From positions 422,773-459,949 of the forward strand of contig NW_003135349.1 in the NCBI RefSeq assembly GCF_000003605.2: a stretch of 37,177 nt of DNA, in the 5' to 3' direction. The translations under genes were made by a program, and so were the position numbers. Of this stretch, positions 2,166 through 37,177 are shown piece by piece (position 1 is the stretch's first letter; every line of letters starts with the position of its first letter). This DNA comes from Saccoglossus kowalevskii. Taxonomy: Eukaryota; Hemichordata; Enteropneusta; Harrimaniidae. The notes below the pieces were generated by a model, which saw nothing but the letters and a program-made list of their open reading frames with translations, was not told the origin of the DNA and ran no database searches.

Positions 2166-3119
2166 AAATTTGTTGATATAAAAGGCTAAAAAGAAAGCTA
2201 TTTCGACTTCTTATTGAAAACGCCTAGCCTGGTTGTTTTGGTACTGTATCTGTGTACCTCTATATTGTGACGGTATCTTCAATCCAACTTCTTCGCATGT
2301 GGACCAATTTGCTTGCAGAGTGTGCATCGTAAACAGTGGAGCTATGAACATACAACGGGTATCATATCATATGGCGTTTATAAGGTGATGAACAGACTAT
2401 ATTGGTTTCAGATGGAAATTTTACATATGTAATAATTGTCATCTGTAATGTTAATTGATCACCAAAGTATGTAAGCTCCCATATGGAATAGCCTTGAAGG
2501 CTAGGCTAATTATATTGAAGATGACTTCACTGTTATAATTAGGGCTGCTTTTGCCATTTATCGTTATATATAATTGTCTGATTACACGTGCTATGTAAAG
2601 TTAGGGGATTAGCTTAGTTGGACATTAAAACGAACATATTTCATGTCACATTTTAATAATTCACGTTAATTACCAGTCAAGTAAAGCCAAACTACATGTA
2701 GGCGTTAAACCACGATCCCATTAATATATTGTGTGGGGATTATCTGATATAATATTCACTAACTAGGGCCAGGCCACATAGAGGTAATTCCAGAAATCCT
2801 TCACCCAGACTGAGGATGTTCTCCCATTACGTTGTAAATTTTCGATTTGCAAGTTGGAGTACAACGGCCTTCTCAATTTAAAAGAAATGTTTTCTATTGA
2901 CAAAACCCGGGATTCGGGTCTCCTCAATCATCCAAGCCATGGAACGGTCACTCTACTTACATACCTAAGTAGGCAAGTTGTGAAGGAATACAACAAGTGG
3001 TCCGTGATTACATATACATGTGATTGGTGTTTTTCTGCTTACATAACACACTACTTATGCATCAATATTCACGCCAGCCGATATGTTAATTTAAACAAAA
3101 CCGGAAAATTCATTTCAAT
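2166..3119. other. Spacer between two oppositely oriented satellite arms
   Basis: About 950 bp with mixed composition separates the two satellite blocks. The longest frame (about 2854-3126 plus) has no recognisable domain. The spacer may be the core of a larger palindromic element, but I see no transposase or other protein signature in it. Confidence 0.3.
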
Positions 3120-4035
3120 ATTGTAAAAAGTGGTTTAAAAAATTGAAAGCAAACCTTGAAAGTCTAAAATTAGGATTTGAAAAGTCATTAAAATCACGCG
3201 GGATGTTGAAAGCATGGACAAGTTGTGTAGAAAGTCAAATAATTAGCCACTAAATAGAAACAATTTGTTGAAAAAATAGAATACTCAATGTTAATACGCA
3301 AACTTAAAAGACAACATCAGAATTTACAAGCAAATTTACAATTCCGAAAATCAAAGTTAGCAACCACACTACAGTGCAACACGGTTATAAAACGTCATAG
3401 AAATTATCTGATAAGACGTTAAACTTTCAGGGATAGTTGTCATAGTAGACTAAAACATTGAAAAGTAGAATTATAATTATGTGGGAAGTTATTAAAAGTA
3501 TGCTGTAAAAAGAGCACGAAGACTTTAAAAAGTGACGTGGAATGTCGAAAAAGTCGTAAAGAATTTAGGAAAATTTTTGATAACAAGTACAACAATAGAT
3601 AAATAGTACAAATCGGCTGGAGAGTAGAAAAACTTAGCCTGATTATCGGAAAATCGAAAACGTTGCCTGGAATGTCTAAAATGTTGTGTACAATTTGACA
3701 AAGTTTATTTGGACATGGAAAAAGTCTACATGAAAGTAGTAAAAAGTGCTTGAAATATCATAAAAATGGAATGTCACAAAAATTGGGTTGAAAACCAAAA
3801 ACATACTGGAAAATGAAACAGTATACTGGATCATTGTGAAAATTACCTGTAAAAACATTTCAACTTTGCAGAAACGTCAAAAAGTGGAAAGTTGTTGGAA
3901 TAGAAAGAAATCCGGGATATGTTAACAATAAAAGTTGTGTGGAAAATCAAAAATATATGCTGATAAGTATACAAAATTCAAAAGCTTCAATGTTGTAGAA
4001 GGTGTCTGAACATTCGAAAAAGTTACTTGTTGCCC
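3120..4035 (+). repeat. Degenerate short-period satellite, plus orientation
   Basis: Repeated variants of TGGAAAGTCAAAAAGTTG recur about every 20-22 bp for some 900 bp. Examples are GGAAAATCGAAAACGTTGCC near 3648, GGAATGTCTAAAATGTTG near 3669 and AACGTCAAAAAGTGGAAAGT near 3872. The motif is the reverse complement of the one at 1790-2165, so the two blocks form an inverted pair. The A-tract period is close to two helical turns, which could give curved DNA; that is inference. Confidence 0.55.
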
Positions 4036-4149
4036 GAGGAAGATTAAACTTTCGAATGCCAATTCAACTTCGAATTTTTAATTCATCTTGTTGATTTAGA
4101 TTATAGTTACATTTTATTTTTCTAGACGGAAATTCAGTGTATATTTCTT

Positions 4150-4510
4150 ATTGTAATATTATGTGGTTATTACGAAGATACCTCAAAGTATGCACGAAGA
4201 CAGTATAGCGACAGTATCGACCGACGCGCAGCGTAATGTCAGCGTACTGTCTACCAAGATTACATCATGGGAATGCCGAAATCTAAAAAGTTTAGAACAG
4301 AATCAGCGAACTTCTTTGTATTGAGTCCGGTCAACTCTGGTGGCAGCCATGTTTGTTTTTATTATTAGAGGACACTTACGCGCGTAATCATTCCATATTT
4401 GGAACTCGCATTTCCTAATATGGTAGGATGAAAATACCTGTAAAATACCGCAAAATCACGGCACGCTGCAACTTATGGCGTTACGGTGACAGATGTATAA
4501 TAAGATGATA
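4150..4510 (-). mobile_element. Non-autonomous MITE-like element, copy 1
   Basis: The reverse complement of this block matches 22013-22352 over most of its length, sharing the end TTATTATACATCTGTCACC, a middle segment with ACCATATTAGGAAATGCGA, and CGGCATTCCCATGATGTA. Its other end carries AAGTATGCA (4182-4190) as in copy 2. An imperfect hairpin lies at about 4197-4253, where AGACAGTATAGCGACAGTAT pairs with GTAATGTCAGCGTACTGTCT. No coding capacity is visible. The two copies differ in their subterminal parts. Confidence 0.6.
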
Positions 4511-5070
4511 TATTACAAATCAAAAGGTGACAAGGTGACAAAAGATAATGTTCTGGCACAGCCCAAATCAAAATAGTGATATTTTACGTATTCAAATAAG
4601 CCGATTTGAAATTTAAAAAAATGCAGTTCTACTTCTGATTATATACAGTATCTCAAGGGCTACAATAATACATATAATAATATTGGTAAAGTTCATCCAG
4701 TGCCTTTTATAAAAAGATTTCATCGTGGCAACTAAATTTTACAATAATCAAATAGCCAGTAACATCAACATATCTAAAGCAAGTAAATCATACGTTATGT
4801 TTCTGTTTTGAGATTGTTGCCTAAAAACTAGTTGTATGCTGAAATGAGAGACACAAATTAACAGTGATTCAAATTACGTGGTCTCCTAGCAATCCCCAAT
4901 TATTCGTCGTTATATATATTCATAGCCGTTGTAAATATTTTGAGACTCGCTATATGTCGTACAGCTGCCACGAGGGCGTCATATAAAACATATTGTCTTT
5001 GGCTAGTCGAGCAATAATCGAGATATAGAGAATCGCACATAGCGCCCTCTTTATTCAAATATACATGTAT
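4511..5070. other. No gene recognised
   Basis: AT-rich sequence without a credible exon. GAGGGCG near 4972 and CGCCCTC near 5043 form a short inverted pair about 70 bp apart. This is too short to call an element. Confidence 0.3.
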
Positions 5071-5337
5071 TTAGCTGTTGATGTTGAGGGCTATGTTAAA
5101 GCCAGTCATCGCGCTGCTCATGTGCGACATTTGTGTTGATAAACATAGATTTTTCCCACAATCCAATGCGTTCTTCAAATGGAAATCACAAGTATGAGGT
5201 TTGACCTGGGCACGACTTGCACTGATTACCGACGGTAACTCTTTCGATACCTTCCAATCACATGAAAATTGTCTAATTAAAGCTTGGAAATGTCCCAGTT
5301 CGTACTCGTTGATCTGCGGAACAGTCAAAGTCGCCAT
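5071..5337 (-). CDS. Possible first exon, unidentified protein (weak)
   Basis: An 88-residue frame begins MATLTVPQINEYELGHFQAL. The ATG has a good context (AAAGATGGC) and the local GC content is higher than in the surroundings. After about 29 codons there is a possible splice donor (GGAAG then GTATCG near 5251), so the true exon may be short. Upstream on the minus strand lie a TATA-like TTATATAAAC, only about 5 bp from the ATG and too close to serve it directly, and a CpG-rich patch with an NRF-1-like core (TGCGCATGTGCG, about 5365-5376). I recognise no domain and find no downstream exon. It could equally be part of a repeat. Confidence 0.25.
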   Translation of the reverse strand: MATLTVPQINEYELGHFQALIRQFSCDWKVSKELPSVISASRAQVKPHTCDFHLKNALDCGKNLCLSTQMSHMSSAMTGFNIALNINS

Positions 5338-5359
5338 CTTTGTTTATATAAGACCCATA

Positions 5360-5400
5360 TATGTCGCACATGCGCAGCGCGACGACTGTCGCGCTTTAAG
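5360..5400. promoter_or_regulatory. CpG-rich NRF-1-like patch
   Basis: A dense run of CpG and GCGC steps (CATGCGCAGCGCGACGACTG) stands out from AT-rich flanks and resembles an NRF-1 half-site pair. It sits just upstream of the MATLTV frame on the minus strand. Promoter activity is inference only. Confidence 0.25.
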
Positions 5401-5539
5401 TTGTGTAATGCAGGAATCGTTGCTTTTCCTATGATTGCAACGTTTTAGAGAGAAAGTCACTGTATGACCTGTATTAGAGGGTATTGACAAATTACCATAC
5501 AGAAAATCTATAATACATAAGCGATGTATATCCTGCACG

Positions 5540-6200
5540 CTAATGCGATATAATGGTCAAGCAAACAGCGCCACCAACCCAAGAAAATCGGTTTGAAAAA
5601 CGTTACTTTGCATTAATTTAACTGTACATATCGGAATGTTTTAGTTAATGTATAACCATTTACTAGTTAATTCATCATCTCATGCGATTCGAGACGACAT
5701 GTTCCCAGTTTCTACGACAGTCTGATATATAAAGAAGAATGAAGAATTTTCAAATGAAGAAATAATGATGCAACAATAACCCCAAAAAATGGTGAAATAG
5801 TGATCGAATATTTGATAAATAAAGACGTGTGGATTGAGTATGAAATTGTCACATAATGACGTACCAATCAAAAAATAAATTAAATTTGGCACAATCATGA
5901 CCCAATAGGAATAAAATGTTGTTAAAAAAAAAAAACCAAAAGAATGATATAATAACGTTCAAATAATGAAATGAGAAAATGACAAATAATTACGTAAAGT
6001 TCATACAATGAAACAATAATATAAATCTGATCAATTAATAACATATTAATGATGAAAGAATATAAGAATTATCAATTAATGATAAATATAATGTTTTAAT
6101 AATTAAATAAAAGCATAAATATGACCACAGAGAGACATGATAATGTATCATAAACTAATTATATTAATAGCAGACGTCTTATTAGAATACTGGTCTAAGT
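5540..6200. other. AT-rich sequence, no gene recognised
   Basis: Very A-rich on the plus strand, with recurrent ATAATGA and AATAATGA words and an A11 run near 5925. It may be a decayed simple repeat. No exon or RNA gene is visible. Confidence 0.35.
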
Positions 6201-9200
6201 ACAACAGGCCAGTAAGTCATTCGGTGTGAGTTCACCTGTACATGCTCACCAGTTCACGCCATGTTTAAATTGTTGTCTGTAGATAATTGTCACTGGATAC
6301 CAAGTTATGAATTTCATCATAGTTAAAATACGATAGCGAATTCTTTGATGTAAGAGCGGGCGTATTTGCATGGGGTCAGTCTGTGATCTCCATTTTAGCG
6401 TAGGTCATATTACACATCTTTGTCATTTAATTAATTATATTTATGTTAAACACAACACAACAGTCTTGTGTTAAAATAAACTTTATCTCTGTCATAAGGA
6501 ATAGCACCAATTTACACAACACATAAATCAAGAAACAATAAGCCAATCCCGTTAATTAAATTGTTACATTATGAACAGCTGTCACCATATAAGTGTGATC
6601 TGAAATGTGATCCCAAACAGTAATACTTCTACGTCTTTATAAACTTCATGAAAACGAGGCATATCATGTCATTTCTAATGAAATATCTTATTTTAACACT
6701 TAACCTATATACTAGTAGGTACAACTGATATCAGTTCATGTGATGCATGCCGGTCTGTACGTGCTAATCAGTTAACATAAGTAAAGTCGTGTTAAGTAAA
6801 GTCTGCAGATAGTTGTCACTAAACACCGAGATATGCATTCATCATTGTAAAAAAGCATAGCCTAACAAAGTAAAACCGTATCACAGCTGTCGAAACAGTC
6901 TCGTATAAAAACTAGTCACAAGGACTTTGATGATGGGAGTATTTTAGTGTCTCTCAGGCTGGCAACAGCGCACTGTTTTTCTTCTATGACTGACAGACTG
7001 AATACGTGCTCAGTTACATGCACTTGATTTTACCAACATTATCGTTAATGCGAAAGGTCGATCAGCTCCACATCTTTTCATGTGCAAGCAGTTTCATATA
7101 ATTGTATCGAACTTCAACTAGAAGTAAATTTATCAAAACACATACAGCGTTATGATTAAATATCAACACGTGCGGACAATCGGACCCCATATGCTCAATA
7201 TTGCGTAGCGCCCTCATGCGATATTACAACGCGTATTTTCACATTATCGATTCCGTCTTTTAGTTAAAAATGAATATTGAATTTGATTCAGTTTTATTAT
7301 ATATCCATGAATAGATTTTAACGAGAAAATAGTTTGTATAGGATTGTCATTTCATATTAAAGCTCAAACATAAAACTAGCTTTTCCACCTCGTGTCCAGT
7401 ATTTGTCAATATGACAAATGACATGTTGCATCAAGTTATAATGAACTGCCAGCGTACCAAGTACAGGTAGTACTTTAGCTCATATCAGACAACACATACA
7501 TTAATCTCAAACAATATGTGCTAATGTCAATCAATATCCCACTGTCCAGAATAGCCGCACTCTGAATTATATTTTGAAAACTCGAATATGCAATAAAATG
7601 TTTATCTATATATATTGCCGACTAAATACAAGAAACAACAATATAATTCCACACGGAATACTAGAATTGATATTCAAGTAGTGACCCTGAAATTTAGTCA
7701 CTTTTGTTATTGTCGATTCTTTTTCGATGTCTGTTCTTTGATTGACATTACATTGTCCCGTCTATAGTTGAATGCACAGACACTTGTCACGAAAACAAAT
7801 ATGCATGTTCATGTTACTCAGGCAAAATAAAAACCAAATAGCTACTATATTCTCCCAATAAGGGATTTAACAAGTAAATAGTTTTTATAGGATTGTCTTT
7901 TTATATTAAAACTCAAACATATAACTAGCATGTACCGTCCCCTTTTAGATAAACAGTTAAATTCACGAGGATTATTATTTGTAAGGCCCGTTTATTGATC
8001 ACTTCTAGTAATTACCTGGCGCCACTATTTTATCTTTATCTTACTTAGCCAAATTAAAACGATGAGTGTTCCAATATTGTTGCGTCTCCAAATATTTTTC
8101 TTCATCAATCTCGAAAACGCAACCTTGCATTACACATTTCAAGATGATAGTGTGATTTCAAACAGTAATACTCCTACGTCTCTATAAACTTCATGAAAAC
8201 GAGGCATGTCATGTCATTTCCAATGAAATATCTCATTTTAACACTTAACCTATATACTAGTAGGTACAGTTGATGTCAGTTCACGTGATGCATGCCGGTC
8301 TGTACATGCTAATCAGTTAACATAACGTGTTAAGTAAAGTCTGCAGATATCTGTTACTGAACACCAAGCTATGCATTCCTTCATTGTGAAAAAGCGTAGC
8401 CTTAACATAACATGGCAATTGTGGTTCAATCGTGAAACCAAGAAGTTTTACCTCTGTGTTCCAATGCCAGGTGTCAACGATGTCAGTGTATTTTGCTTGT
8501 GAATCTACTGATTTGTTATTATAATCACTGTGATCATAACAAAGTAAAACTGTAGCACAGTTGTCAAAACAGTCTCGTATAAAAACTAGTCACAAGGACT
8601 TTGATAGTGGGTGTGTGTTAGTATCTCTCAGGCTGGCAACAGCGCCACTGTTATTTGTTTTCGGTGACTGACAGACTGAATACGTGCTCAGTTACATGCT
8701 TTTGATTTTACCAAAATTATCGTTAATTCGAAAGGTCGATCAGTTTCACATCTGTTCACGTAAAAACTGTTTTACAAACTGTCAGTTTCATATAATTGTA
8801 TCGAACGTCGAATAGAAGTGAATTTATCAAAACACATATAGCGTTATGATTAAATATCAACACGTGCTTTATATAAATCGGATCCCATAAGTTCAATAAT
8901 CTGTAGCGCCCTCATGCGAAATTACAACGCGTATTTTCACATTGATTATGTTATTGGGTTGACAATGAATATTGAATTTGATTTAGTTGTATTATATATC
9001 CATGATTGGATTTTTAGGTAAATAGCTTTTATAGGATTTCTAGGATCATCACCAGACTTACTAATATATATCGCCTTCGTGTGGGTGATAGCTTATAACC
9101 ATAGCATATACTATATAACAACCTATTTAGTCTTGGTCAATGACAGCGTGGATATAATATTGCATTAAAGAATATTACAAGAATTAAAAAAGCACTTAAA

Positions 9201-12130
9201 CTAATAACTTTCGGAAACAATCTTTGGTTTAAAAACTATTTACTCTTATTTCCGACTACGGTTAGATTCAGTGCCAAATATTTCACTGTCAATAGTTTGA
9301 ACAATAATCACCCGTTAATTTGAGTGTACCTTCTGTAAGCATTACTCAGTCAATCTTAATACGACACGAGGATAGTTCATTCAACTAGGTGAAAACAACA
9401 GTTAGTTGCACTATCGAGTCATCTTTGACAACTTAACTTCTTCTGTGCCATGCACTCCTTATCTAATAATTCAATTAATGTATAAATCAATATGTACAAA
9501 TGTCAAGATGTGTAAATATCGCAATGTCTATACTTATCACACTCTAAAGGAAAACTTTAAGGAAAACGATGTGAAAACCCAAACGACTGTTGGTTTTATA
9601 GCAATTGTATATAATTCCGGTTAGAATAAAATATAAAATATAAATCTCTAGCCTTCATGAAATGTAGTCACAATGTGTTATTATCGATTTTATTGGTTGA
9701 TTGACATTACATTTTCCTATTTATAGTTGAATGTACAGACACTTGACACGAAAACAAATAGGCATTGTTTAGGTGAAGGTTCATATTTCTCTGGTAAAAG
9801 CAAAATTAAATTGTTACTATACCCTCCCATTTTAGATAAACAGTTAAACTCACGAGGCTTATTTTTTATTTTTTTATTTTGTCAAAAATTACTAACTAAA
9901 TATTTGCTTTGTTAAAATTACCTCAGACCAGCAAGTCCTGTTCAAGTATTGTTTGTAGATAGTTGTTACTGGATACCGAGTTATGCATTTCCTTATCGAC
10001 AAATTACAATGGCGCACTCTTTGATATAACCATGGGAGACATATCACATGACATAAATGCGGTGATTAATTATATGTAAGGTCAGAAGAGGTGACTTGTT
10101 ATCTGTAAGACATAAATTAATGGTTTAATCTTAGACCTTCAGGTGTGGAAGTTTTTTGTTTAATTTACTTTGCAGGGGCATACTGTTTTACAAATAAACA
10201 TGACCCACTCAAAATATTACTTTAAAAAGGTTATTATCACTTCAAATATACAATTTCGAAGTAATCTGAAATTGTGATTTTTTTTAAATACACCATACCA
10301 GTAAGTCATTCTGACTGTACTGATTTAGCAGATTACGTTATGTTTTTGTTTGTAGAGTATTGATATTGGTTACCTAGTTATGAATGTTATCATCAACAAA
10401 TTACAATGACGCACTCTTTGATGTTACAATGGGACATATCACATGCCATAAATGCGGCGATGAATTGTATGTAAGGTCACTAGATGTGACATGTTATCTA
10501 TGTGACGCAGTCTCTCATGCTGGCAACAGCGCCACTGTTATTTTTTACCGATGACTGACAAACTGAATACGTGCTCAGTTACATGCACTTGATTTTATCA
10601 ACATTATCGTTAATGTGAAAGGTCGATCAGCTCCACATCTTTTCATGTGCAAGCAGTTTTACAAACTGTCAGTTTAATATAATTGTATCGAACTTCGACT
10701 AGAAGTGAATTTATTAAGACATATAGCTTATATGATTAAAGTTCAACACGTGCTTTAAAATCGGGCCCCATAACCTCAATATTGCGTAGCGCCCTCATGC
10801 GTATTTTCACATTATTGATTCTGTTTTTTGGTTGACAATGAATATTGAATTCGATTTAGTTTTATTATATATCCATGAATTGATTTTAAGTAAATAGTTT
10901 TTTATAGGATTGTCTAGGATTATCACCAGACTTACTAATACATAGCACACTCACGTGGGGTGATAGCGTATAACCAAACTTTCAATACAGAGTATGCAAA
11001 TTTGTAACAACCTATTTGGTCTTGGTCAATGCAACATGGATATAATATTGCATTAAAGGATATTACAAAAAATAAAAACAGCACTTCACCTTATAACTCT
11101 TGAAAACAATCTTTGGTTTAAAATAGTTACTCTTATTTCCGACTATGGATAGATTCAGTGCCAAATATTTTAGTTTGAACAATACACGCCCTTTAATTTG
11201 AGTGTACCTGCTGTAAACATTACTCAATCAATCTAAATACGACATAGGGATAGCTCATTCAACTAGGTGAAAACAACAGTTGCATTATCAGGCTCATATT
11301 TGACGACGACCTACAACCAGCAAGTCACTCTAGGTGACTTTTTCTGTACCATGTACAAGAGACTCCTTATCTAATAATTCAGATAATGTATAAATCAATA
11401 TGTACAAATGTCAATCAAGATGTGTAAATATTACAATGTCTATATTTCCTTAAGGAAAACTTGAAGAAACACGATATGAAACCCAAACAACTGTTTTATA
11501 GCAATCGCATATATTCCCGGTTAGCATTAAGTATAAAATATAAAACTCCGTTCTTCATGAAATGTAGTCACAGTGTGTTATTATCGATTTTATTGGTTGA
11601 TTGACATTACATGTCCTATTTATAGTTAAATGCACAGACACTTGATACGAAAACAAATATACATTGTTTAGGTTAAGGTTCATCTATCTCAGGTAAAAGC
11701 AGAATAAATTGTTACTATACCCTCCCATGTTAAATAAATAGTTAAATTATTTGTTATTTTTCATCATTAGTAACTAAATATTTATTTTGGCAAAATTACC
11801 TCAGACCAGCAAGTCAATTGAAGAGAGTTCACCTGTACCGGATCATCAGATCACGCCATATTTAAAATGTTGTTTGTAGATAGTTGTTACTGGACACGGA
11901 GATATGCATTTCCTTATCGCAAAACACGGTAGCACACTTTTTGATGTAACAGTGAGGACATATCACATGACATACAGATACAGTGAATAATTGATGGCGT
12001 CGGTAGAGGTGTTGCAACGAAATTATCTTAGACTGATACCATTTTAGTCGAGCCTTGTAACGAAGTATTTACAAGGCCTGCTTATTGACAACTTCTGCCA
12101 TTTACTTATGACGTCATAGTTTTATACTTC
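6200..12130 (+). repeat. Decayed tandem array of kilobase-scale units
   Basis: Several blocks recur in the same order and orientation. Block 6605-7365 (CGTCTTTATAAACTTCATG, TATATACTAGTAGGTACA, GCATGCCGGTCTGTAC, GGCTGGCAACAGCGC, TAGCGCCCTCATGCG) is repeated at 8150-9040 and in part at 10500-10910. Block 9040-9990 (ATCACCAGACTTACTAATA, AATGTAGTCACA, CCTCAGACCAGCAAGTC, GATAGTTGTTACTGGA) is repeated at 10910-11890. GACATATCACATGACATA occurs at about 10029 and 11947, with a close variant near 10433. The frames inside have no recognisable protein. The unit is about 1.5-2 kb with many indels, so this is an old segmental or satellite-like expansion. Confidence 0.65.
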
Positions 12131-27558: not shown

Positions 27559-27909
27559 CTAGTTGTTGCATAGCAACGATTTGGCTCTGTGTCTACAGGA
27601 AGAAAACAACTCATTTCTTTTATTTAAACTACAGTAATGTGGTTGGAAAATTATAATATATTTCTCTCTAATGCATAAGTTGCAACGTTTGCTTGAAGTA
27701 TTATATGGTGCAGCACGCGATAACACTCTCCATTTGATGTCATAATCGATGTTATTATCTTTTAATGACCAAGCGTATTTACTGAGCTCTGTTGCGTTTC
27801 TTATTGATTGGTTGCGTAGCGATGCAGTGTGGTTTCTGTACCGGGTTTTAAATTCATTTCCTGTTAGTCCCACATATGTTTCACACGTGTTGTTGTCTCG
27901 CCGTCTGAT
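27559..27909 (-). pseudogene. Penelope-like element fragment: GIY-YIG endonuclease tail
   Basis: The minus frame reads DNNTCETYVGLTGNEFKTRY, then TELSKYAWSLKD, SKRCNLCIREK and NKRNELFSSCRHR, and ends at a stop at 27559. This is the typical C-terminal end of the GIY-YIG endonuclease domain of Penelope-like reverse transcriptases. Visible are the YVG part of the YIG motif, the arginine in KTRY, the glutamate in TELSK, and the CxxC of RCNLC. The first half of the signature (GIY side) and the whole reverse transcriptase are missing. The homology runs into a TA microsatellite, so the copy is strongly 5'-truncated. It cannot be autonomous. The first ATG-like codon inside is not a real start. Confidence 0.85.
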
Positions 27910-27935
27910 ATATATATATATATTTATTTATATGC
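27908..27935. repeat. TA-rich microsatellite at the truncation point
   Basis: An alternating TATATATATA run merges into TTTATTTATATG exactly where the Penelope-like coding similarity stops on its 5' side. It is probably the insertion junction or a later microsatellite expansion that erased it. Confidence 0.55.
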
Positions 27936-29990: not shown

Positions 29991-32060
29991 ATCTTTGCTG
30001 GTCGACAGAAAGATAACAATCACTTCATACCATAGCTGCCATTTCTCGTGTGGGTAGACATACTTATCAAAAGGTGAAGTACATATCATGTTTTTAACCT
30101 GTTGGGCGTGATAATAACTTTATAATATACTTTCCAAATTTCATTTTCGGGTTGAACTATTTGCATTTAATATATCATAATTTATCGGCATTAGGTTGTT
30201 ATTTTCAGTAGTTTCTTCTTTAATAAATATAATAGCAAAATATTAGTGTTTTCGAAAACCTGTGCATTGTTTTAATGCATTATACAATATAATAAATGAA
30301 TAGCCAACATATGCAACGGATTGTCATGCATGTGAATGGTCACTTTTTACAGAAATATTGTGTTGTGAACCCTGGTTGTGTTGATTCAAACTGGTTCTTT
30401 GGGCGATTGCACTATGCGAGTTGGGCACTACCAAATAACACATTTCCCTATGATACTGTACGTCGAGTTAACAAAGTCACACTCTAACAACACTGTGACG
30501 CCGTCCATGAAATTACCAAAACTGCTACTGATTAATATTTATGAAAAATCAAATGTAATAAATATCAATCAATTGCAGTTTTAGGCCGCTATACATAACA
30601 CAGTGCCAATCAGCGACAAGGCAACTTGTTTTGTGTGGTTATGGATTTATTACACAAATCTCAACATGATTGTTGTACATATTAAACTCCCAGATAATTG
30701 TGTGAATGTAAAATTCTAAAATATACGATTGACAGAGCATCGTACACAGCCACGGGAACACTGACATGTAAAATAGCACGGTAGTAATAACGCTGTCGAA
30801 CAGTTTTCAATTTGTCAATAGGGCTAGGGAGGAGTACAAAAACAGACTCTATGATGATCTTTGGTTTGGAAGTACTAAATAAGGCGTATATTTTGGTGTT
30901 GTATTCCCGACCCAAGATTGACATCGCACTTTTCAACTTCACTGTTGAAGTCAATGAGAGCGTTCACGCTATGAGGAAAGCGCAATGAAATATGAAAAGG
31001 TAATTGGTTTTAGTCTGTTAGTAACATTGTTCATTGTTCTAATTTTAGACTGGAGACACTGATAATTGTTTTCATAGTTTAGTAGTTTAGAGTTGTTTTA
31101 TGAATTTAAGGTAATTCCATCAAGAATATTACCATTACCATTAATAATTTCATAGTTTAGTTGTTCGTTGTAAGATACCTGGATGCCCGCGGTAGAGAAT
31201 ATGTGACTAATTGGCATCGATCGGTTTTCCCCGAACTGTTTTTTTCAATGGTAGTTTTGGAAATTATTTCCGCACATGCGTATCAATCAGTTTTGATTTC
31301 TGCAAACGTTATAACATGCTCCTAATTTTCCAGGCCTTCAATTAGGCGTACATCTGGAACAGTAGGTTTTCCTTGTGCCATATTTAGTGGTTAGGGTTAT
31401 TCTGGAATCGAACAATTACAATCCAATTGCCCCACGTATTACAATACGGGCTGCCTACTCACGGCACTATTGTTGAAAAAATCTCAATACTATGGTTCAT
31501 GTTTTAAGTATTTGAAGTTAATGTTACGGCTAGTAAGAATGGGATAATGAAATACAAGTTATGTTTACAATGAGTTTCTCGTTTGAACATGTCTTTAATT
31601 TGTTTTACCGTCTATTTCGTTACTAGTTGTGTTCACCATTTGGTATTTTCAGGGTTATCGAAGAGTATTAGGTTTCACGCACTGAAAAATTCACTGTGTA
31701 CAACATTTCGAGACTGTAACCTGGCAGCGCCACAGAAGAAGAAAAATGAAGCAATGAAAATTAAGTTAATTCACAGCTCATATACACATTAAATATAAGC
31801 CACATCTATCAATACACAACAAAGAAGAAGCTGTTACTTACTTTCGATATACGAGAACAAACACCGTGTGTTTTGCGTGACTTTAATAGAATGTGATTTT
31901 ATCCACAAAAAGCCTTGACATGTTACAGAGAATCAGTAATAGTGTCATGACAACCCACTTCAGTTTGATTTATTGCAACGAATCTGTGATCAATAATTAC
32001 GGACTACATTTTGAGACAAATGAAACTAATTAACATGCACATGCAGCTGAATCTATATCA
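29991..32060. other. Intergenic region of the divergent pair
   Basis: About 2 kb with no exon I can support. Small frames (30296-30487, 30682-30954 and 31583-31792) show no domain. GTTCGATTCC on the minus strand near 31412 resembles a pol III B box but lacks tRNA pairing. Confidence 0.4.
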
Positions 32061-32064
32061 GCAT

Positions 32065-32333
32065 ATGTAATATAAAATTGCTATATATTTTTTTAAAAAA
32101 TTTAAATACATAGATTTTAAAAAAGCGATTTCGGCAATATACGAACAACTTGAAATAATGCGTTGACATCACGCATTCCACGGGCGTGGCAAATATGTAA
32201 ATGATGCTGCCACTAGTTAATCTCGAACAATGGGCAATAGTTGTGGGGGGTTTGGAACGTTACCTGTGGACGTGAAGTCAGTTCGTAGCAGAAGATAACA
32301 TGTTATAAGGTGTTCAGTTATATCAACTATACA
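32065..32333 (+). promoter_or_regulatory. Probable promoter and 5' UTR of the plus-strand gene
   Basis: Upstream of the ATG lie a TATA-like TATAAAAT (about 32070), a CRE-like TGACATCA (32164-32171), a KLF/Sp-like GGGCGTGGC (32182-32190) and an octamer-like ATGTAAAT (32195-32202). Which TATA or start site is used is not clear. These are simple string matches and need expression data. Confidence 0.35.
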
Positions 32334-33561
32334 ATGGCTCCAGCAGTACTTATGGTGTGTACGTCATGGTCTCCTTTCATCAACTGGGATGTATCGTATG
32401 CCGTCCTTCTACTGGCGAAATTATTCCGTACTCTTGGTGTGACTGTTTACTGTACTGTGCTTGATGTTGATAGCGAGTTCGAAAGAATGGCGGTATCTCA
32501 TGATATACGAGTTGTACACCCTACTCCAAAAGCAAGACGTTTCCATGGGATAAAGCCAAATCACAGTTGGGTACTTTTTTTTGAATACTTTTACACTGAA
32601 CTCAGTAGCCTCAATGACATTAAAATAGTAATTGGATTTGAGTCGTTGACATCTGAATCAGCTCTTCACATGAAGCTTAACATTTTTACAGATGCAGCTT
32701 TATACTTAGTTCACATCCCGAATTTACAACCCGATTTCGCTTTGAAAGAAGCAGAGGTCGAAGAGGTTGGTGGCGCAGTTGCTGCTAATCCTTCTAACTT
32801 GTCATCAGAGGAGTTACAGCAAGCCATGGCTGTACTTTCTATAGGACCATGTGCATTCAAGTGTTTTGTTTCAAAGTATAAACAGAAAACTGCTGGTGTA
32901 AGTCATGTTGAACTTGAACCCATTCCAGTCAACAATATTCTAAATGAGACAACTGCAAACATGCCATTACTGACTAAGAACTTCACTGTGATTTCAGTAA
33001 TGTCCACCAGTGATGATACCGGTGACATCGGAAAACTAACTGCCATAGCTCAAGCGTTTTTTAACATTCTACAACGTAGAGAGCACCTGATTAGGTCGAT
33101 AACGTGGCATATATTTGGTGTTCCTATTAGTGAAGAAGATACCTTGATAAAGACTCTTTCTAAAGGACATCACAATGTAAAAATAATTCCACACATAGTA
33201 CGATCTGTGCACAATCTACACCCGACTCTGTCTAGCTCACACCTTGTGTTAATTACACCAGACTTGCCATTTGCATTCGGCTATCTACTTGACGCTCTAA
33301 CTATTGGAATTCCGATACTTGTTTCAAGGAATTCTGAATGCCATGAATTTTTGAAGATAATATGCTGCGGCCATGACGTACATGTTAAAATGTCGACCAC
33401 TTCAACTGACATTGAATGTAAAATCATTGATGTAATTCAACATTATGCCTCTGCTCTATCTACTGCCTTTGAGATGAAAGGATTCGTACATAACTATACA
33501 GATAAATTGCTGAATGAAACAATGTTGTCACTCACAGAGAAAACAATTCATTCAGACAGCG
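32334..33561 (+). CDS. Exon 1: glycosyltransferase-like domain
   Basis: 409 codons plus one base, ending ACAGCG then GTAAAT. The N-terminal half has strand LMVCTSWSP (6-14), strand VTVYCTVL (36-43), IRVVHPTPKARRF (about 57-69), and IVIGFESLTSESALHMK (about 97-113), followed by LYLVHI. The C-terminal half has FTVISVMSTSDDTGDIGKL (about 218-236), WHIFGVPISEED, VKIIPHI, and SSHLVLITPDLPFAFGYLLD (about 302-321) with ALTIGIPILVSRNSECHEFL (about 322-341). That last block is the position of the GT4 E-x7-E signature, but the first glutamate is gone and the second is aspartate. The usual G-rich loop after strand 1 is also absent. Binding without catalysis is the likely mode. Confidence 0.8.
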
Positions 33562-36518
33562 GTAAATAATTTATTTATTTATTCACATCACCTTTTTTAA
33601 TTGTATGTTGTAATACAGCTTATAACGTCAGTAGATTAGAAATTATCATGCTTCATTTATCTTATGAATAAATATAATTGTCATTTATTAAAAATAGGAA
33701 AAGAACGGTTTCTTAATAAAGCTGAACAATCAATATCAGACGATCCAGCAAATGAAGTAGACCAGTCATCTGACGAAGCGCAAGAACAATTGACGGAGGA
33801 TGAAATCCAGAAAAGAAGTATGTACCTTCAAATTTCGCATCGTATTTCTATGTGAAATTAATGTAAGGCAACACGCATCCCATTAAAAAATTAATTAAAT
33901 TGACACGATGTACATGTATTTATTTGACTATACAACTGTAGAAAGAAAAAGAGATGGATCACATGTCACGTCCAAGCGTAGTCGACTAGAAAAACACGAG
34001 GAAAATCCAGATGACATCAACATACCATTGGAAAAACGAATACAAAGTATGTATTCATGTGTATGTGTGTTGGTTACCCTCGAAAGTGTGAACATCGAGC
34101 TTCTGAATAATTTAAATATCGTCAATTGTCAGCGTATCGTTGGTTTATCTTCTGTTTTAAAACTTTGTTCTTGTAGTCGCTTTCTTGTCGGTATGAATCT
34201 GCCAAATTATTCGTTTTTTTTCTTGTTTCCAAGATAGTGCTGCCTTGCTCGTCAGTGCAGTCAGAATTGCACCCGCCACGTCAACCTCGCAGTATTCGTT
34301 GTGAAACCATAGCTTGTCTTGCCATCCAAGCAAAACTGCTGGAATTGTTGGTTTTAAAAACGTTATTACTGATTCGAATGTTAACGGAAGCATGTTTATT
34401 TGTCTGTATGTCGAGCAGTTGTGTGAAGTTGGTTTTAGTTCCATATGTGATTCATTTGTGTACGTCAAGCCGCTGCCTAAGTCAGCTACCTGAATAGTTT
34501 TGTCTGGTGTTCCACCCTGCATTCCAATTTCCGCATTATACGTGAACTAAATATGAATGTGTTGTCAGCTCAATAAAATATTTACCAGTTAGTTGTAAAT
34601 ACCCCAAAGCAAAAACATTTGAAGGTGTAATGATTATAATATACTAGTACGCACAAAATATACATGTCCATGGATGAAATAACGTGGAAATTGCGGCAAA
34701 AAGTCGCATTCAAAGGAATTGTTGGAATGTTATTGGCATTAACAACGGTACATTTGACCTGCATTGACCTTTAAATGTATATAGTCGTAATTTCGGTTAT
34801 TTTTATACTCGATTAATACGAGAATTGTTTACACTGTAAATCATATTATCTGGTGATATTATATGGTATTATAACTGCACTATACCTACACCCTTCACTA
34901 ACCCTAGGATTTGCAAATATTTCAATGCTTATTACAAAATGCATGATGTTGTTTTTTTCTTTGTTGCATTTCTATTTAATTCAACTTTTAATTTAATTGA
35001 AAAGTCATTGCCTTAGAAAGGAATAGAGAATAACTATCATGAAGTTTTTGAGGAGCCATTATTCTCCAAACCACTAATAAAACACCATCTGAGTTTGTTC
35101 GTGTTTATTTAATTTATGTATTATTTTCTTCATGTGTCAAACACTCATTTTTATTATTTTTAAAAAGCTAATTATCAATTTATTATCAATTTTCTCAATC
35201 ATTTTAGATGACATACATCATGAGAATGACCTGTCTGATGTTGTGAATACACCAGTGATTCGGACACGTAATAAAGGTACAACCAAATTTCATAGAGGTA
35301 TATTCAAATTCTTCTATGTAATGAATTGTTATCATTTGCACTATCATGTTAGTGATTATAACGTTCTAGCTTCTTTTTACAGGTGAAGTGTGTGTGTATC
35401 TAGGGCTCCATAGTGTTGCCATCGAAGGTGGTACGGCAAAGGCCGTTGAAGGCGCACTGCTGAACAGTGATCTTGAGGAAAGTCTAAAGCAACATTGTCA
35501 CGACGGTTTGGAGTTGACAACACTAATTCTCTGCCCACCTAGCTACATTTTGAAGTGCAAGACGACTGGCGCATTAGCTCAACTATGGGAATCGTATCAG
35601 GCAAAACGTCTGAAATCAAATTTACAGAGCATAGTTACTCTGATACTTTTACGTCGTATTGGCGCTATTTCTTTAGATATATCTCCATATATAGATTATA
35701 CAGAATACCAGAAATGCAGAAAGGAATTGGAATTTGAAGGTATTGTCCATGCTTATTGCATTCATTTGAAACTGGATTCTTCATAATAAATCACTTAGAT
35801 ATATGAATTAGCTTATGGTGTGTACATAGAGTATAGTTCAGCGTGATACCAGTTACTGTACAACGGCCACCCCTTGCTATAAACTGCTCACTTTGTCGGG
35901 CGCTAAAAATAGACAGTATCGACTAAAGCACGTGATACATCTGTGAGCACGCATATTAAATCCAAATGACAGACGTTTTGTAGTTTTGAAACGGAAAAAT
36001 TTCTCGGCATTCGTAACCTTAATACCGTGCACATGTATTCGTAACCTTAATATTCGTGATGTATATTTGCCAGATTCCCCAGACTATAAATTATTGAGTT
36101 CAAGTCTATATAGTTACATACATTTTCCCATACTTGCAGTTTATTTTCTAAGCGAACATCCCCACAGTAGTATTCTGGTAGTATCGTCCGTCTCCTGGGC
36201 TATGTTTGGTATTGACGTACATTGTATAGACCATTTAAAACAAACGTCTAAATATTTATGCTGTCAGATGTAAAATAATAACATTGTACTCAACTGTGCT
36301 TATAGTGGTTTAATTTGCATGCCTTGTTTTTGTTTCTTATATTTCAGATGCTCTATCTGGAAGTTTCAATGCTGCATTTGATAGTAAGAAACATATTACT
36401 GGTATATACGACCTGATATATTCACTTCCTGTGTGCAAAGACAGAAAAGGAAATAAGCCCTCGTCATCTAAAGTGTTTACACCATATAATACCACAACAC
36501 AAATAGCTAGACGACAAG
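32334..36518 (+). CDS. Spliced gene: glycosyltransferase-like domain plus TRADD-N-like domain (3' incomplete)
   Basis: Predicted exons are 32334-33561, 33698-33817, 33942-34046, 35208-35276, 35383-35739 and 36348-36518, giving about 683 residues. A possible further exon lies at 36931-37041. All introns are GT-AG and all are phase 1, and each internal exon is a multiple of three, so the reading frame is kept through every join. Architecture: a degenerate GT-B-like domain (about 1-395), an acidic then basic disordered linker (about 396-507), a TRADD-N-like domain (about 508-626) and a polar tail. TRADD-N is an adaptor domain of TNF-type and immune/apoptotic signalling, known in metazoans and in prokaryotic conflict systems. 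The likely role is innate immune or cell-death signalling (inference). There is no stop before the window ends, so the C terminus is unknown. The ATG at 32334 has a strong context (ACAATGG). Confidence 0.7.
33698..33817 (+). CDS. Exon 2: acidic disordered linker
   Basis: 40 codons between AAAAATAG and GTATGT, joined in frame to exon 1. The peptide is low-complexity and acidic (SISDDPANEVDQSSDEAQEQ, then LTEDEIQKR). No domain is seen. It is most likely a flexible linker, possibly phosphorylated. Confidence 0.6.
33942..34046 (+). CDS. Exon 3: basic linker with NLS-like cluster
   Basis: 35 codons between ACAACTGTAG and GTATGT. Joined to exon 2 it gives QKRKRKRDGSHVTSKRSRLE, a bipartite-like basic cluster, then an acidic stretch HEENPDDINIPLEKRIQ. 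The basic cluster is completed only by the splice. A nuclear localisation signal is plausible but unproven. Confidence 0.6.
34047..35207 (+). other. Large intron
   Basis: Intron between exons 3 and 4. It contains a coding-like segment in antisense (34187-34540, listed separately). An exon-like piece at 35017 (frame KGIENNYHEVFEEPLFSKP) has the wrong phase for its neighbours, so it is not included. Confidence 0.5.
34187..34540 (-). pseudogene. Unidentified coding-like segment, antisense in the intron
   Basis: The minus strand is open for about 115 codons in a GC-richer patch, reading FTYNAEIGMQGGTPDKTIQV, then ADLGSGLTYTNESHMELKP, and LLGWQDKLWFHNEYCEVDV. It begins just after an acceptor-like CATATTTAG. 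The plus strand of the same interval has stops in its longest related frame. I recognise no family and find no partner exons. It could be an inserted exon of another gene, a retrocopied fragment or a repeat-derived frame. Confidence 0.3.
35208..35276 (+). CDS. Exon 4: short polar linker
   Basis: 23 codons between a pyrimidine-rich acceptor (CAATCATTTTAG) and a GTAC donor. The peptide is NDIHHENDLSDVVNTPVIRT, then RNK. Phase 1 on both sides. No domain. Confidence 0.6.
35383..35739 (+). CDS. Exon 5: TRADD-N-like domain
   Basis: 119 codons between TTCTTTTTACAG and GTATTG, phase 1 on both sides. Sequence landmarks in order are strand VCVYLGLHSVAIEGG, helix KAVEGALLNSDLEESLKQHC, strand LELTTLILCPP, strand YILKCKTTG, helix ALAQLWESYQAKRLKSNLQS, strand ISLDISPYIDY, and final helix TEYQKCRKELEFE. 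The pattern of a helix with LWxxY...RL, then a strand, then EYxxCRKEL matches the TRADD N-terminal domain family and its invertebrate expansions. TRADD-N mediates adaptor contacts in TNF and immune signalling. The alternating strand/helix order fits its alpha-beta fold. Alternative: an unrelated ferredoxin-like fold. I am fairly but not fully sure. Confidence 0.7.
36348..36518 (+). CDS. Exon 6: polar C-terminal segment
   Basis: 57 codons between CTTATATTTCAG and GTATTT, phase 1 on both sides. It reads DALSGSFNAAFDSKKHITGI, then YDLIYSLPVCKDRKGNKPSS and a Ser/Thr-rich end. An internal GATA-GTAAGA after 12 codons (near 36384) is a strong donor and is also phase 1, so a 37-bp alternative exon is possible. 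No domain is recognised. Confidence 0.5.
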
Positions 36519-36619
36519 GTATTTGTATCCGGGCTTCATATAATTCAAAGTTATTGCAATCTTCAAATACTCGAAATCTCTAAATCGTTTGTTGTGTCAT
36601 AATAAAGACAGTAGTGAGG

Positions 36620-36840
36620 GCGGTATGTGTTTTTAGCCCCCGCCGGATCTGTGATCCGGGCGGGGGGGGGGGTATTAATTTTGGTCGTGTCTGTGCAATG
36701 TGTGTGCACATTTTCATGTTACCAGCTTCTTCTCACACATGTGTGATCCAATTCAGTTCAGAGTTGGTACAGAGACAGAAATTGATGGTGCTATGGTGCA
36801 CATCAAGTTATTTTTTCGATTCTTCAAAGTTTCACTGTGT
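36620..36840 (+). mobile_element. Fragment of the 21134-22000 repeat family
   Basis: A hairpin CCCCCGCCGGATC / GATCCGGGCGGGGG (36637-36666, one bulge, TGT loop) leads into a G10 run. About 90 bp on, GTTGGTACAGAGACAG, GGTGCACATCAAG and TTATTTTTTC match 21700-21770 (ATTGGTACAAAGACAG, ATGCACATTG, TTATTTTTTC). The open frames across it are shadows of the repeat. Confidence 0.5.
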
Positions 36841-36930
36841 TTTTCCTTGATTTTTAACATTTTTCCTTCAAAATCCGACTTTTCCCGAAATTACCCGAGT
36901 TTAATCCGAGTTTTGATGACGCTTACGCAG

Positions 36931-37041
36931 TTCTCGTCTCGTTGGAAATCAGTCAATTTTGTGAGGATATTGTATCCCGGAATTGTATCTTTATTTGCGC
37001 AACGCTTCTATGGACAAAATTGTGTCTCGTCAATTTCAAAG
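36931..37041 (+). CDS. Possible exon 7 (weak)
   Basis: An interval of 111 bp lies between ACGCTTACGCAG and a strong donor, CAAAG then GTAAGA. It is open, phase 1 on both sides and joins exon 6 in frame, reading VLVSLEISQFCEDIVSRNCI, then FICATLLWTKLCLVNFK. The acceptor has a poor pyrimidine tract, and the interval lies just after a repeat, so it may be chance. Confidence 0.25.
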
Positions 37042-37177
37042 GTAAGACACTGTGCTTGTTATGGTATTTATACACTTTGTATTATCGTTTGTGTCTCGGG
37101 TTTGGTGATTGTGAGAAACTATTGCTAACCTGTCGAGAGTTTCGCCAGAAAAACTGCCTTTTTATTATGGTTGTAGG

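Follow-up and report, generated by a model that had tools for sequence, protein, structure and literature searches.

We analysed a 37,177-nucleotide stretch of the Saccoglossus kowalevskii genome (contig NW_003135349.1, positions 422,773 to 459,949; hereafter the window, C2730:422773-459949, where C-numbers denote contigs of the searched genome assembly of 572 Mb and 4830 contigs) and find that it carries a gene predicted to join a GT4-conflict glycosyltransferase domain to a TRADD-N-type domain. We propose that the gene encodes a predicted intracellular immune protein of the GT4–TRADD-N type known from animals, in which a dead GT4 domain would serve as a sensor or binding platform, and we hold this reading with a probability of roughly 0.6. 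The proposal is built on the loss of the E-x7-E motif from the GT4 domain, on the recurrence of the same arrangement at nine loci of the genome and on the kinship of the fifth exon with a family of TRADD-N-like exons.

The six-exon glycosyltransferase–TRADD-N-type gene model is confirmed, with joins that are predicted. The preliminary description of this gene, which included small linker exons, proved exact in its coordinates: splice-site and frame analysis gives a 683-codon open frame on the + strand with GT-AG joins throughout, all five introns are in phase 1, and the lengths of exons 2-6 are divisible by three. Exon 1 (32334-33561) encodes the GT4-conflict domain, of GT-B type by family (residues 1-409, with the PF20706 match at residues 27-373). 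It is followed by three phase 1-1 linker exons: exon 2 (33698-33817, 120 nucleotides) encodes an acidic linker (residues 410-449), exon 3 (33942-34046, 105 nucleotides) a linker with a basic KRKR...SKRSR stretch, which we take to resemble a bipartite nuclear localisation signal, and exon 4 (35208-35276, 69 nucleotides) residues 485-507. Exon 5 (35383-35739) is a single symmetric phase 1-1 exon for the TRADD-N-type domain (residues 508-626), and exon 6 (36348-36518, 171 nucleotides, phase 1-1; residues 627-683) has no Pfam match. At the base composition of the window, the chance of an open frame is approximately 5e-14 for the 409 codons of exon 1 and 1.4e-4 for the 118 codons of exon 5; the values for the short exons 2, 3, 4 and 6 (0.05, 0.07, 0.18 and 0.014) are singly not strongly beyond chance. 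The phase-1 donor of exon 1, GCG|GTAAAT, lies five bases before the end of the open reading frame (ORF) and agrees with six of nine consensus letters, which is middling and not decisive. Paralogous loci nonetheless support the predicted joins, for they repeat the exon order and agree in intron phase. Exon 6 has a donor site, which implies that the protein runs beyond it; the 3' end of the gene was not found, the contig being N for 8,988 bases from the end of the window, which may be a gap of the assembly. Nine further ORFs of the window gave no Pfam family match over the cut-off and add nothing for the gene, and searches for tandem repeats and, within 30000-37177, for inverted repeats returned nothing relevant to it.

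Exon 1 belongs to the GT4-conflict family with an E-value of 4.6e-13 (PF20706; 49.3 bits against a cut-off of 26). An E-x7-E motif in the C-terminal Rossmann domain, whose residues act at the donor site, marks an active GT4 glycosyltransferase. This mark is absent from exon 1: in an alignment with 14 long intact paralogues and three bacterial relatives, the corresponding site, PDLPFAFGYLLDA (33258-33296, + strand), contains no glutamate, so that both positions of the motif are lost. The claim of a glycosyltransferase-like domain without its catalytic signature was therefore right, and the PF20706 match makes this domain GT4-type by family. The window exon is also altered at the positions of a glycine pair, a histidine, an arginine and a lysine that are common to most intact copies. 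The motif is probably ancestral, since all three bacterial relatives aligned (from plasmid records, 16 of which were found) keep it. A profile built from seven intact GT4 copies produced 27 pattern matches in genome contigs of bacteria and archaea, none of them confirmed as a relative.

The genome contains a GT4 family of which the window gene is one member. A profile search with PF20706 returned at least 36 places, each marked over the cut-off. With the neighbouring GT4 gene of the window (P0003) added, these make 37 rows, of which three (C4067, C1340:850947 and C3772:22201) do not reach the position of E-x7-E. Among the 34 rows counted, the motif is kept in 15 (for example, SRSEPFGLVGMEAIATG in C1496) and absent from 19. 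One of the 15 (C4225) is a fragment with stops, leaving 14 long intact copies; C1922 and C4117 are near-identical and may be one gene. A separate GT4 group (C2978, C3898, C2665 and C3772) keeps only the second glutamate of the motif, in open frames of 563-625 residues.

We searched the genome for TRADD-N exons, taking the Pfam model, exon 5 and exons related to it as queries. At nine loci (the window, C166, C3614, C1342, C3421, C1053, C4098, C4347 and C3803), such an exon lies on the same strand as a GT4 copy and 0.5-2.9 kb downstream; the exon of C3803 is partial (50 residues, then a run of N), and C4347 is known from the search table only. E-x7-E is kept in none of these nine GT4 copies. Seven TRADD-N exons (window, C166, C3614, C1342, C3421, C3472 and C4614) were inspected for splice sites, chosen by eye among several candidates, and six of them have phase-1 choices at both ends, with a phase-1 donor alone for C3421. 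No TRADD-N exon at E up to 1 was found behind ten intact copies with at least 4.2 kb of downstream letters; the remaining intact copies have 2.3 and 1.2 kb before a run of N (two copies) or less (three). For the dead copies C1604:276123, C1340, C2978, C3898, C2665, C3772, C1645 and C3219, TRADD-N was sought by genome-wide searches alone, with the best candidates scored. In C4098 (L056), two tandem TRADD-N-like exons (716-1204 and 1399-1884) lie behind one GT4 gene, and C3614 has a weak earlier TRADD-N-like exon (E 0.139) without a Pfam TRADD-N match; in the published survey, the domain is described as mostly single-copy (Kaur et al. 2021, PMC8195603, cited here and below for its passages on TRADD-N and GT4).

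The TRADD-N assignment is best made through the family of exon 5, and it is at the family level only that we place this exon in the predicted TRADD-N superfamily. Eight of 13 family exons, GT4-linked or not, match TRADD-like_N (PF20694) at E up to 1, with a best value of 5.5e-5; each of the ten other Pfam families listed matches one of the 13. In hhalign comparisons, a profile of seven GT4-linked exons (A5) is related with a probability of 98.4% to four exons whose contigs have no listed GT4 (A7) and of 98.2% to a set that includes the C4098 tandem exon (A6), and exon 5 alone (P0002) reaches 91.9%. A control with an unrelated GT4 profile gives 0.6%, and this control outweighs the percentages themselves because single-pair hhalign E-values are not calibrated. 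The four A7 members match PF20694 at E 5.5e-5, 5.8e-4, 7.3e-4 and 0.055. A genome search with TRADD-like_N scored C3472 at 23.7 bits and an NCOA6-like gene in C3686 at 42.4 bits. The latter (C3686:460449, L009; NCOA6-like by eye, with a glutamine-rich tail) is the best TRADD-like_N match of the genome, at 3.1e-8. Between its strands 2 and 3, TRADD-N has a motif of a small residue followed by Ser (or Cys) that is described as strongly conserved, not absolute (PMC8195603), and Ser or Cys is read from the alignment at this place in four of the seven GT4-linked exons. Searches of solved structures with P0002 and P0001 gave no match up to E 10, the profile A1 had a best E of 0.21 with nothing relevant, and the TRADD-N exon L010 had no match among plasmids.

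What does a glycosyltransferase domain do once its catalytic signature is gone? Loss of E-x7-E from all nine TRADD-N-linked copies found favours a sensor or scaffold over an effector. Should the TRADD-N-fused copies be dead enzymes and the live enzymes free-standing, a sensor role becomes the more likely one for the GT4 part of the adaptor. We consider it unlikely that the GT4 domain remains an active effector, working through other residues and merely regulated by TRADD-N. Such activity would agree with the literature, in which GT4 is read as a potential enzymatic effector modifying the molecules of an invader (PMC8195603), and with a PF20706 match that extends over residues 27-373; one glutamate is, moreover, retained in five of the 19 copies without E-x7-E, although no TRADD-N exon was found for these five. 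However, the second glutamate is kept in none of the nine linked copies, and the window copy lacks the glycine pair, histidine, arginine and lysine as well.

The donor sites at the end of the GT4 exon bear on whether the two domains form one gene. The alternative is two adjacent transcription units, with a free-standing GT4 gene terminating at the stop of exon 1 and a separate TRADD-N gene downstream, an arrangement that we regard as improbable. The intact copies look mostly stand-alone because their best phase-1 donors mostly agree with six or fewer of nine letters (13 of 14 copies, one of these without any donor; seven letters in the remaining copy), and the neighbouring P0003, whose best donor agrees with four letters, looks stand-alone as well; the six letters of the window donor are within the range of such copies. 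However, phase-1 donors of seven or eight letters are present in seven of the nine linked copies, and an eighth, C166, scores five in the scored stretch and has AAG|GTAAAC further in. The succession of GT4 and TRADD-N on one strand within 3 kb, repeated at nine loci, and the fit of frames and phases across the six exons of the window likewise argue for a single gene.

The GT4 tree has 35 rows, including two bacterial ones, with short fragments and the Nostoc row left out. All 14 intact animal copies group together (98/96). The nine copies linked to TRADD-N are spread over three groups, and a tree constrained to keep them together is rejected (p-AU 2e-61). Window exon 1 and P0003 pair (99/97), a pairing of two long-branched genes that may be false; the end branch of the window copy is 1.64, which makes it very divergent. 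E-x7-E is kept in none of the nine linked copies versus 14 of 24 other animal rows (Fisher p 0.004, for rows that are not independent), and four independent pairs that differ in TRADD-N have the same motif state within each pair. The dead GT4 domains look about as constrained as the live ones because their ratios of nonsynonymous to synonymous change (dN/dS) are similar: 0.40 and 0.52 in two TRADD-N-linked pairs, 0.68 in a dead pair without TRADD-N, and 0.60 and 0.57 in two intact pairs. These ratios are simple counts without a significance test and concern paralogue pairs, the window gene having no close relative among these copies.

Several observations weigh against the proposed reading. 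For the TRADD-N part, exon 5 alone matches TRADD-like_N at E 0.14, below the Pfam cut-off, and DUF4464 slightly outscores it there (E 0.071); the case for TRADD-N thus rests on the paralogues. The TRADD-N match of the preliminary description accordingly stands for the family, where 98.4% is set against a control of 0.6%, and nearly failed for exon 5 itself. All 13 family exons lie below the TRADD-like_N cut-off of 23.7 bits in protein scans, and the window exon has Cys-Pro at the place of the small residue–Ser motif in the alignment, with a serine two residues on. The best solved-structure match of the family profile A4 is a haemoglobin alpha chain (E 0.0063), and no TRADD chain is found among the matches of this profile. 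We judge the haemoglobin match to be due to chance because it spans 52 positions of the profile and is not accompanied by any TRADD chain. For the GT4 part, the arginine or lysine position is also altered in three of the 14 long intact copies, and these two positions alone are thus no mark of death. Several intact copies have donors at least as good as the one of window exon 1. For ten dead copies in the tree, no TRADD-N exon was found, and a single clade of all dead copies is not rejected (p-AU 0.41); it is thus possible that E-x7-E was lost once and long ago, in no connection with TRADD-N and at a time that preceded the fusions or later losses of TRADD-N. Motif loss and TRADD-N are therefore linked by association only. 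TRADD-N fusion as the cause of the loss was considered and set aside: the rows are not independent, one clade is allowed and the four pairs show no motif difference. Finally, the linked GT4 stretch of C3421 has five in-frame stops. That the whole family is decaying into pseudogenes without function, as these stops, the fragmentary state of other copies and the long branch of the window copy might suggest, is the least credible alternative, given exons open over 409 and 118 codons and dN/dS below 1 in all five paralogue pairs measured.

Beyond exon 6, the paralogues offer the view that the window does not. In two linked paralogues, C1342 and C3614, over 5 kb of determined sequence follows TRADD-N, and both contain ankyrin-repeat ORFs on the same strand; one such ORF was scanned in each and matches Pfam Ank at 3.5e-10 and 2.2e-7, respectively. 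Splicing of these ORFs to TRADD-N is a prediction. An effector or ATPase domain, which had been suggested for the missing C terminus, finds no support, both traceable paralogues continuing into ankyrin-repeat ORFs. On the far side of the run of N that follows the window, a 307-residue NHL-repeat ORF (L016 6351-7274, + strand; Pfam NHL 4.6e-22) was considered as part of the gene and left out because approximately 9 kb of N plus a further 6 kb separate the two. A reverse-transcriptase-like ORF, as judged by eye, is located there as well (L016 693-1592, - strand).

We therefore return to the proposal of a GT4–TRADD-N protein with a dead GT4 domain and outline how it might work. The GT4 domain would no longer transfer sugar and would serve as a binding platform, its most likely ligand being a sugar-bearing molecule or a protein from an invader or from the cell. 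Ligand binding would shift the contacts of TRADD-N with its neighbours and lead to partner recruitment, as Kaur et al. proposed for TRADD-N generally (PMC8195603), where the domain is proposed to keep flanking domains inactive until a signal arrives. In the two traced paralogues, the ankyrin-repeat ORFs would supply a further surface for recognition. Ligand, partner and output are all putative. The earlier wording of a ligand-sensing pseudoenzyme appears to fit the sequence, and the tie to immune or conflict biology that came with it is supported. A more far-reaching and distinctly speculative scheme, to which we attach little probability, is a two-part immune system derived from one enzyme family: intact stand-alone GT4 enzymes would attach a sugar mark to molecules of the invader or the host, and the dead proteins with TRADD-N and ankyrin repeats would read the mark or pair with live enzymes and signal through TRADD-N, the head-to-head dead pair of the window representing a sensor and its partner. 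If the proposed reading is true, dead and live copies of one genome can be compared for sugar-donor binding and partner recruitment. The anatomy of the TRADD-N exon may also point to a mosaic route of assembly, in which an exon flanked by phase-1 introns can enter other phase-1 introns with the frame intact.

The neighbourhood of the gene contains a second member of the family. P0003 (28561-29793, - strand) matches PF20706 at E 1.3e-6, is 23% identical to exon 1 and lacks E-x7-E; it ends in its own stop, and a TRADD-N profile scan found no TRADD-N exon for it in the window. P0003 and window exon 1 are divergent dead GT4 genes that lie head to head, approximately 2.5 kb apart. A 122-residue ORF at 27559-27927 (- strand) has only a weak zf-CW match in Pfam and presumably resembles the GIY-YIG proteins of mobile elements. 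Elsewhere in the genome, C466 (L033) contains a run of overlapping ORFs (2284-9899), retroelement-like by eye, downstream of a dead GT4 copy; no TRADD-N was found downstream of this copy, though its GT4 frame has a phase-1 donor of eight letters. A mitochondrial COX1 piece in the assembly and the NCOA6-like gene probably indicate an animal source; the COX1 piece reads with TGA as Trp, and its four ATA codons look like Ile.

The proposed protein can be compared with three known systems. The human TRADD N-terminal domain, which binds TRAF2 (PDB 1F3V; PMC8195603), is predicted to be of the same superfamily as the domain of exon 5; unlike in human TRADD, no Death domain is seen in the known exons, and TRADD is not among the solved-structure matches up to E 10. 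Exon 1 scores above the curated cut-off of the GT4-conflict family PF20706, which includes bacterial conflict glycosyltransferases, but the three bacterial relatives aligned keep E-x7-E and the window copy does not. The closest counterparts are the GT4–TRADD-N–LRR proteins, and the fusion itself is not new: Kaur et al. 2021 (PMC8195603) report GT4 followed by TRADD-N and leucine-rich repeats (LRRs) in cephalochordates, hemichordates and cnidarians and in 'no other metazoan species', with more than 500 GT4 copies in one coral. No other paper with a title or abstract opening on GT4–TRADD-N fusions appeared among the matches listed, which include two further papers that contain both TRADD-N and glycosyltransferase (PMC7159879 and PMC12419801). 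Neither 'exon' nor 'intron' is used in PMC8195603, and the GT4 domain of these fusions is nowhere called inactive in the passages covered, which hold 12 of the 17 places with 'inactive' and related terms. Judging from the passages on these fusions, the proteins are alike in the order of GT4 before TRADD-N, in the presence of many copies in one genome and in a predicted immune or conflict setting. They differ in that two traced loci have ankyrin repeats rather than LRRs and that C4098 has two TRADD-N-like exons. To this known architecture, the present analysis adds that E-x7-E is lost in all nine TRADD-N-linked copies found in the genome, and that no TRADD-N exon was found behind the ten intact copies with at least 4.2 kb of downstream letters.

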